A stretch of 57,919 nt of DNA from Bacteroidia bacterium (GTDB lineage: Bacteria > Bacteroidota > Bacteroidia > JADZBD01). A program made the position numbers and the translations under genes. Location: positions 1 to 57,919 of the forward strand of contig JADZBD010000021.1 of assembly GCA_020852255.1 (NCBI GenBank), in the 5' to 3' direction. The stretch's first letter is position 1. Each line of letters starts with the position of its first letter. The notes beneath the pieces were generated by a model that ran no database searches, was not told the DNA's origin, and saw only the letters and a program-made list of their open reading frames with translations. This document shows positions 36,547-37,326 of the stretch, piece by piece.

Positions 36547-36554
36547 TATATTTG
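36547..36554 (+). promoter_or_regulatory. -7 element upstream of tRNA-Ala
   Basis: TATATTTG matches TAnnTTTG and ends 15 nt before the mature tRNA 5' end. It would also drive the GIY-YIG gene that follows without an intervening terminator. Confidence 0.6.
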
Positions 36555-36569
36555 TTTCCCGAAAAAAAT

Positions 36570-36646
36570 GGGGGATTAGCTCAGCTGGCTAGAGCGTTTG
36601 CATGGCATGCAAAAGGTCATCGGTTCGACTCCGATATTCTCCACCA
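36570..36646 (+). tRNA. tRNA-Ala(GGC)
   Basis: Complete cloverleaf: acceptor GGGGGAT/ATTCTCC (with G-U pairs), D arm GCTC/GAGC, anticodon stem TTTGC/GCAAA with loop ATGGCAT (anticodon GGC, alanine GCC), variable AGGTC, T arm ATCGG/CCGAT with loop TTCGACT, discriminator A. CCA is encoded (36644-36646). The 3' half is repeated downstream on the far side of a nuclease gene. Confidence 0.95.
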
Positions 36647-36662
36647 AAGAAGGTTTGATCAG

Positions 36663-36914
36663 ATGCCCTTCATTGTATACATCTTGTATTCTGAGTCCTC
36701 AGACAAATACTACACTGGTCATACTGAATTTCAGGAAAATAGAATCTTCCGACACAATAATTCCGGTAGCAGATCTACAAAACATGCCAAAGACTGGGAG
36801 TTGAAGTATAAGGAGGAGTTTCCAACTCGATCTGAAGCAATGAAGCGTGAGAGGGAAATAAAAAAGAAGAAAAGCAGGAAATATATTGAAAGAATTATCG
36901 GCCAAGCTGGCTAG
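36663..36914 (+). CDS. Small GIY-YIG nuclease-like protein
   Basis: 83 aa, a single minimal GIY-YIG domain of the UvrC/SLX1-like small type. Visible: VYI (5-7) and YTG (17-19) in place of GIY and YIG, the Arg/His/Asn cluster ENRIFRHNN (25-33), a Trp-centred strand DWELKYKEEF, and the catalytic-Glu helix EAMKREREIKKKK (58-70). The start at 36663 lies 16 nt after the tRNA-Ala CCA; the longer frame through the tRNA is spurious. The last codons and the stop TAG lie inside a copied tRNA D-loop (AGCTGGCTAG, 36905-36914), so the gene is wedged between a tRNA and its partial duplicate. No separate promoter is evident; it would be released by tRNA 3' processing. Mobile or homing nuclease is inferred. 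Confidence 0.8.
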   Translation: MPFIVYILYSESSDKYYTGHTEFQENRIFRHNNSGSRSTKHAKDWELKYKEEFPTRSEAMKREREIKKKKSRKYIERIIGQAG

Positions 36915-36967
36915 GCGTCCCGCGTGAAACGCGGGAAGGTCATCGGTTCGACTCCGATATTCTCCAC
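36905..36967 (+). pseudogene. Partial tRNA copy 1 (D-loop to 3' end)
   Basis: Begins with AGCTGGCTAG, identical to the tRNA-Ala D-loop (36583-36592). It continues with a replaced anticodon arm (TCCCGCGT-GAA-ACGCGGGA, 36918-36936, a perfect 8-bp palindrome), then 32 nt (36936-36967) identical to tRNA-Ala 36613-36644, covering the variable loop, T arm and acceptor 3' strand. The 5' acceptor strand and the 5' half of the D arm are missing, so it cannot fold as a tRNA. The loop would read GAA, but a working tRNA-Phe is excluded. Confidence 0.85.
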
Positions 36968-37326
36968 AATGAATATGAGTTCAGAGTTACAGCAACTCAA
37001 ATAGAGTTTATAAAAAAGTGATGAAGAGTAGGATTTTTTTAAACAAGGAATTCCCGGTGAATGCCAGAGCGCCCCGAGACATCGGGGAGGTCATCGGTAT
37101 TCTTCACACAAATTGAAAGGGTACAATATGATTTTTTGTTTTTGCACTAATGAAGATATGACTGTTTCTTTGGCGCGGGGTTTTTTTACTGCCAATTAAG
37201 CATGTTGCAATTTTCTTCCTGACCCGGGGAACCGAACAGGGCATGTTCTTCGATGAATCCTTCTTTTTACAGCCTTAACTTCCCACCTATTTACCTGATT
37301 ATTAGGGTAGTTTCTTTAAAAATTTG
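36968..37326 (+). other. Intergenic stretch before the polysaccharide locus
   Basis: About 360 bp with no supported gene. It holds the second partial tRNA copy (37066-37107) and leads to the wza promoter. No nuclease ORF remnant is recognisable between the two partial copies, and no further hairpin terminator was identified. Confidence 0.6.
37066..37107 (+). pseudogene. Partial tRNA copy 2, more degraded
   Basis: Starts AGAGCG as in tRNA-Ala, then a palindromic arm CCCCGA-GACA-TCGGGG (37072-37087), then AGGTCATCGGT (37088-37098) and ATTCTTCAC, close to the tRNA-Ala 3' end. Most of the T loop and the 3' side of the T stem are deleted. Weaker than copy 1, but the order of shared blocks is the same. 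Confidence 0.65.

Follow-up and report, generated by a model that had tools for sequence, protein, structure and literature searches.

A small nuclease gene lodged between a tRNA gene and a partial copy of that same tRNA poses the question of what kind of element duplicates the 3′ part of a tRNA without an integrase, and by what means it could spread. The arrangement lies in the window, the 57,919-nucleotide stretch of DNA analysed here, from a Bacteroidia bacterium (assembly GCA_020852255.1, contig JADZBD010000021.1; forward strand).

The tRNA-Ala locus of the window

An intact tRNA-Ala(GGC) gene with encoded CCA occupies positions 36,570–36,646 of the forward strand (ARAGORN; 62 bits with the Rfam tRNA model). 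Sixteen nucleotides separate its end from the start of an open reading frame of 83 amino acids on the same strand (36,663–36,914, ATG start; Pfam GIY-YIG, E 5.5e-15), whose product, P0001, is hardly more than a GIY-YIG domain. Then follows a pseudo-tRNA, copy 2 (36,892–36,967, same strand), made up of a D-arm remnant, a hairpin and a copy of the tRNA-Ala 3′ end. By repeat comparison, the 32 nucleotides at 36,936–36,967 are an exact copy of 36,613–36,644 in the tRNA. The palindromic hairpin, TCCCGCGTGAAACGCGGGA, stands in place of the anticodon arm of copy 2 (36,918–36,936, forward strand), as judged from the sequence, its fold and its relatives; it is perfect, TCCCGCG-TGAAA-CGCGGGA, its end is the start of the exact tRNA copy, and relatives of the element have a hairpin at the equivalent position. 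The TAG stop codon of the GIY-YIG gene (36,912–36,914) is at the same time the TAG of the copy 2 D arm, and the last codons of the gene are also inside that arm.

Copy 3 (37,048–37,109, ends approximate, forward strand) is a decayed, gene-less pseudo-tRNA that matches less well and has a hairpin of its own, CCCCGA-GACA-TCGGGG (37,072–37,087), in the place equivalent to that of the copy 2 hairpin. The tRNA, the gene 16 nt from it, the 32-nt repeat and the third copy had all been reported in the first-pass annotation and are confirmed. To that annotation the graded decay of the copies also suggested repeated insertion, for which it is poor evidence here; copy 3 is better read as a gene-less pseudo-tRNA, since this form occurs in other genomes. 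Two or three tandem hairpin-bearing pseudo-tRNAs resembling copy 3, with no GIY-YIG gene, are present at each of L242 (G209:C4:22189-22420), L231 and L245.

ARAGORN calls copy 2 a tRNA-Phe, yet a second working tRNA was rejected on its Rfam score, 24 bits against a cut-off of 29; to the eye, copy 2 is without a 5′ acceptor strand. Chance was likewise rejected as the source of the 32-nt repeat: controls were empty, and the arrangement recurs in many other genomes with tRNA-specific sequence. A frame open from 36,552 to 36,914 crosses the tRNA and continues into the GIY-YIG gene (MFPEKNGGLAQLARAFAWHAKGHRFDSDILHQ...), a likely source of protein annotations that derive from tRNA.

Association with tRNA genes in Bacteroidota

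When GTDB genomes were scanned for relatives of P0001, 80 loci came up, mainly in Bacteroidota with a few in Ignavibacteriota, Marinimicrobia and Cloacimonadota, and these together with six loci of the window genome form a set of 86. A GIY-YIG domain lies at most 150 nt downstream of a called tRNA in 47 of the 86, and at many of these loci the gene is followed by a copy of the neighbouring tRNA's 3′ end. It is the neighbour that is copied: a Val copy goes with tRNA-Val, and likewise for Arg, Met and Ser. Alignments reveal a recurrent order of intact tRNA, often a terminator-like stem-loop, GIY-YIG ORF, D-arm remnant, hairpin and tRNA copy, the last being mostly the final 28–34 nt of the adjoining tRNA. 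At about half of 83 loci the gene ends within the copy's D arm, its stop codon 7 nt ahead of the hairpin.

The subfamily (E ≤ 1e-12) was found in 69 of 148 evenly drawn Bacteroidota genomes. A tRNA adjoins 60 of the 69 loci sampled from them, which takes the association well beyond the single locus on which it was first noticed: 51 genes are less than 350 nt downstream of the tRNA and nine just upstream, with none in reach of the other nine, some of which are near contig ends. The loci were taken from the stronger matches, and the figures accordingly apply to the core of the subfamily. More than 15 anticodon types are represented among the tRNAs concerned. At 30 of the 51 loci the final 20 nt of the upstream tRNA are copied after the gene (opposite strand, 0 of 51). 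The outcome that the first-pass annotation had named as refuting its proposal, GIY-YIG genes with no tRNA association elsewhere, is thus not the one observed. There are also mirror layouts, in which a copy of the 5′ half is followed by the gene and then by the intact tRNA (Arg-CCT, Pro-GGG and Val).

Terminators bear on whether the arrangement serves expression rather than movement. In a regulatory or processing module the nuclease would be expressed from the tRNA promoter and by way of tRNA processing, with the pseudo-tRNA as an mRNA 3′-end signal or as a decoy for a nuclease acting on tRNA. The window has just its 16-nt gap with no terminator-like stem-loop between tRNA-Ala and gene, and read-through from the tRNA is therefore possible there; the window pseudo-tRNA also folds more stably than shuffled versions of it (z −2.65). 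Such a module is nonetheless extremely unlikely, given that in many relatives tRNA and gene are separated by a terminator-like stem-loop and T run, that the mirror layouts place the gene upstream of the intact tRNA, and that GIY-YIG enzymes are mainly DNA nucleases. Even with the window lacking a terminator, the earlier suggestion that the nuclease is expressed through tRNA processing is on account of these relatives not favoured.

The genome from which the window comes has two further members of the subfamily, which fall in other parts of the protein tree. At one (L002, G000:C7:51229-51444) a small GIY-YIG gene directly behind tRNA-His(GTG) has after it a copy of that tRNA's 3′ end with a hairpin; at the other (L005, G000:C20:53001-53165) the gene is directly behind tRNA-Met(CAT), and a hairpin-bearing pseudo-tRNA is just upstream of that tRNA. 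In Flavobacterium caseinilyticum six GIY-YIG units are in tandem with a period of about 358 bp (L134, G002:C24:34487-36489), each followed by a hairpin-bearing tRNA fragment, and no intact tRNA is called in the stretch.

Empty alleles, occupied alleles and the two 3′ ends

Presence and absence of the gene at one and the same site, with empty relatives, is a feature of homing genes, and it is seen at the tRNA-Ala loci of Flavobacterium. Among 70 tRNA-Ala(GGC) loci compared in a sample of the genus, 16 have the gene, 12 of these with the partial copy, and all 54 gene-less loci have neither gene nor copy (Fisher p 1.7e-10 for the association of gene and copy, a value that ignores the relatedness of the loci). 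The first-pass annotation had named partial copies in relatives that never have the gene as evidence against its proposal; in Flavobacterium copies come only with the gene, and gene-less pseudo-tRNAs are found elsewhere. Its comparison of occupied with empty tRNA-Ala genes succeeded in Flavobacterium rather than at the window's own locus: L158 and L164 differ from the syntenic empty L193 by an insertion of 356 nt, position 357 after the tRNA meeting position 1 of the empty allele, and L199 differs from L216 by 364 nt. L197 has two tandem units.

The inserted block of about 360 bp in these pairs contains the GIY-YIG gene and no integrase, and insertion by an integrase was rejected on that ground. 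Insertions by tyrosine integrases typically duplicate a tRNA 3′ end, and the likeness to tRNA-integrating islands and prophages goes further: there, too, the tRNA is restored on insertion into its gene, and part of its 3′ end is left behind as a copy. Unlike those islands, however, the element has no integrase, measures some 360 bp and has mirror versions with copies of the 5′ half. That it is the remnant of an island after loss of the integrase was already disfavoured, and is barely credible for so compact a block with this one gene, of a family recurring at many tRNA types.

Which of the two 3′ ends is foreign can be read from the same pairs. The right-hand copy of L158 has the T stem (ACCGG/CCGGT) and the terminator of the empty L193; the left tRNA differs from it in T stem (ATCGG/CCGAT, internally paired) and terminator, and its CCA is encoded. 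The right terminators are like those of empty relatives at nine or more occupied loci, while several left terminators are like those of other elements. From L158 and the terminators it follows that the inserted unit consists of a tRNA 3′ patch, terminator, GIY-YIG gene and hairpin, and that the partial copy represents the 3′ end displaced from the host gene; in these relatives a foreign 3′ end is fused to the host gene and the native end displaced. The left terminator of L158 and L164 is also like the native terminator of a relative, L212, which is possibly of the donor lineage. At L199 the left anticodon stem differs from that of empty relatives, possibly through co-conversion.

Tandem duplication would hardly yield terminators and T stems that are foreign on the left and native on the right. 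This tells against an ancient and essentially immobile pair of tRNA and nuclease, whose copies would stem from tandem duplication with gene conversion and whose absence would signify loss. Related hosts do often have related genes at the same tRNA, tandem units are common and the left and right flanks are nearly identical at some loci, all in keeping with immobility, but the empty alleles bear no trace of copy or gene and more than 15 tRNA types are used. An immobile pair, too, was already disfavoured, and is very unlikely.

Empty and occupied alleles, tRNA-specific copies and protein lineages that follow tRNA type together lend strong support, on sequence grounds, to the proposal of the first-pass annotation that this is a mobile module targeting tRNA genes with no integrase. 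For the window locus a syntenic empty allele was not found. Only one other genome of its family was found; it has a tRNA-Ala with neither gene nor copy, though its context differs from that of the window, and the insertion model is accordingly applied to the window only by analogy. If the analogy with relatives holds, the last 31 or so nucleotides of the window tRNA-Ala would be part of the inserted element, and the pseudo-tRNA at 36,892–36,967 would be the displaced 3′ end of the host.

The enzyme, the hairpin and the mode of movement

P0001 has the domain and the catalytic Tyr, Tyr, Arg, His/Tyr and Glu of the GIY-YIG superfamily: none of Y6, Y17, R27, H31 and E63 varies among 53 homologues (48–69% identity), nor does a basic C-terminal motif. 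The median dN/dS is 0.11 (56 pairs with moderate dS), and some GIY-YIG copies are broken by stop codons. Low dN/dS with broken copies means selection accompanied by decay, as expected of a selfish gene, and with the empty alleles it amounts to the cycle of selection, decay and loss known for homing genes. The protein tree, from 85 columns and poorly resolved, groups by tRNA type, with 33 changes against a shuffled mean of 71. The predicted structure of P0001 (pLDDT 81.5) is nearest to UPF0213 (1zg2) and then to Slx1 and I-TevI, with weak E-values; a profile search likewise gave a likeness to UPF0213 and Slx1 at least equal to that to I-TevI. No match was obtained with PADLOC defence families, NCBI-named families or, with P0001 as query, viral contigs, and PHROGs gave nothing better than E 0.019; an origin in phage or plasmid was rejected, there being no match with the query used.

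At the level of sequence, then, insertion relative to empty alleles, a foreign left and a native right 3′ end, tRNA-specific lineages and a conserved nuclease under purifying selection are established for relatives. From these we infer cleavage of tRNA-gene DNA, repair-driven copying, a role for the hairpin and the extension to the window locus. The reading that fits best, and is probably correct, is a minimal element of about 350 bp, free of integrase and specialised on tRNA genes, which would move by homing. The GIY-YIG enzyme would cut or nick, inside the tRNA, the tRNA gene of an element-free allele, and repair would copy the element in, with tRNA sequence at both of its ends as homology. 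The element would bring its own tRNA 3′ end, from position 43/44 to 73 or about 31 nt, along with a terminator in many relatives. Fusion of the host's 5′ part to this 3′ patch would leave the tRNA intact, while the original 3′ end, pushed downstream, would become the partial copy and keep its native terminator. The palindromic hairpin in one arm of the displaced copy probably spoils its tRNA function and possibly its function as a target.

Homing leaves a gap in self-protection. In occupied alleles the displaced copy is broken by the hairpin, but the left tRNA is intact and so is still a complete target. Also to be counted against homing are the little room that a GIY-YIG domain of about 80 aa has for a separate specificity domain, the occurrence of some pseudo-tRNAs without the gene, and the poor resolution of the tree.

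The gap would vanish if the enzyme, as Slx1 does with branched DNA, recognised structure. In the donor it would then cleave the cruciform or hairpin formed by the pseudo-tRNA, and the freed end would switch template into tRNA genes; the hairpin would be the working end of the element and intact tRNA genes would not be cleavage targets. This hairpin-based mechanism is the main rival to homing. In its favour are the hairpin's presence in nearly all elements despite sequence variation, the tandem occurrence of gene-less hairpin pseudo-tRNAs, and an enzyme whose profile and model are like UPF0213 and Slx1 at least as much as I-TevI. It is still unlikely: protein lineages specific to a tRNA type suggest sequence specificity for tRNA, the sequence of the hairpin is not conserved, and the resemblance to Slx1 is weak and confined to the catalytic domain.

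The hairpin is in the anticodon arm of Ala, Val, Pro, Lys and Arg elements, and in the T arm of Asp, Gly and Ser elements; it is near universal among them and variable in sequence. At L016, L017, L033, L041, L062 and L070 the T arm of the displaced copy is broken by a second palindrome, and palindromes seem to enter tRNA arms repeatedly. When hairpin-bearing pseudo-tRNAs were sought blind to the gene, 18 of 395 genomes matched (reversed control, 0), with the gene also at about 11 of 20 distinct pseudo-tRNA loci; most of the others are gene-less with a called tRNA next to them, which in some cases may be no more than a call on the pseudo-tRNA. The hairpins as REP-like repeats throughout the genome are not the main story, as sites are few: TCCCG-N8-CGGGA has only eight in the window genome, several without an internal palindrome, and a tighter hairpin pattern has 3–30 per genome in 12 genomes.

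REP/RAYT systems also link a small nuclease gene to palindromes and have gene-less derivatives, but their enzyme is of another class, and here the hairpins are in tRNA copies beside the parent tRNA. With GIY-YIG homing endonucleases of the I-TevI type the element shares catalytic fold and residues and the presence or absence of the gene at a fixed site; it differs in having neither intron nor separate DNA-binding domain and in its putative target, a tRNA gene. UPF0213/YhbQ offers the nearest solved structure and is of similar size, yet the UPF0213-like genes of the same genomes form a separate branch, often between repeated palindromes and not beside tRNAs. These small genes (h0, h1, h6, h7, h10, h19, h26, h45, h46 and h54, in genomes G001, G002, G003, G006, G007 and G009) lie between direct repeats that consist of REP-like palindromic sequence, such as CATTGCGAGGAACGAAGCAA, possibly a second association of nuclease and repeat.

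The closest precedent, by analogy of logic, is the mobile ORFs of fungal mitochondria that replace the 3′ ends of genes. There the host gene is joined to a foreign 3′ end that arrives with the ORF of a homing-type endonuclease; its native end comes to lie further downstream, and insert-free relatives match this displaced end (PMC3630166). Examples are the hybrid atp6 of Allomyces macrogynus and atp6, atp9, cox2 and nad3 of Glomus, the Glomus atp9 mobile ORF encoding a GIY-YIG enzyme (PMC3630166). In contrast to these, the host genes here are bacterial tRNA genes, the enzyme has about 80 aa, the element about 350 bp, and a hairpin is in a tRNA arm of the displaced end. No bacterial element of tRNA and GIY-YIG gene is described in the literature searched; preprints and most subscription papers were outside its scope and novelty is thus unproven. 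The chances are about even that a widespread and undescribed class of bacterial selfish element is represented, in which an enzyme of about 80 aa homes into tRNA genes, the 3′ half of the tRNA serving both as repair patch and as a portable arm of homology, lineages retarget between tRNAs, and an occupied allele is marked by the palindrome in its displaced copy. The portable 3′ half would then make flanking homology with the recipient unnecessary.

If homing is the correct reading, the element would be among the smallest autonomous mobile elements, a single enzyme of about 80 aa in about 350 bp, and its survival in essential tRNA genes across the phylum would be due to its carrying its own repair patch. 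It would extend the strategy of the fungal mitochondrial ORFs to the tRNA genes of bacteria. Many small ‘GIY-YIG’ genes of Bacteroidota would be explained by it, as would some of the false tRNA calls and of the tRNA-derived protein annotations in that phylum. With lineages specific to tRNA type, change of target by a homing enzyme becomes directly testable.
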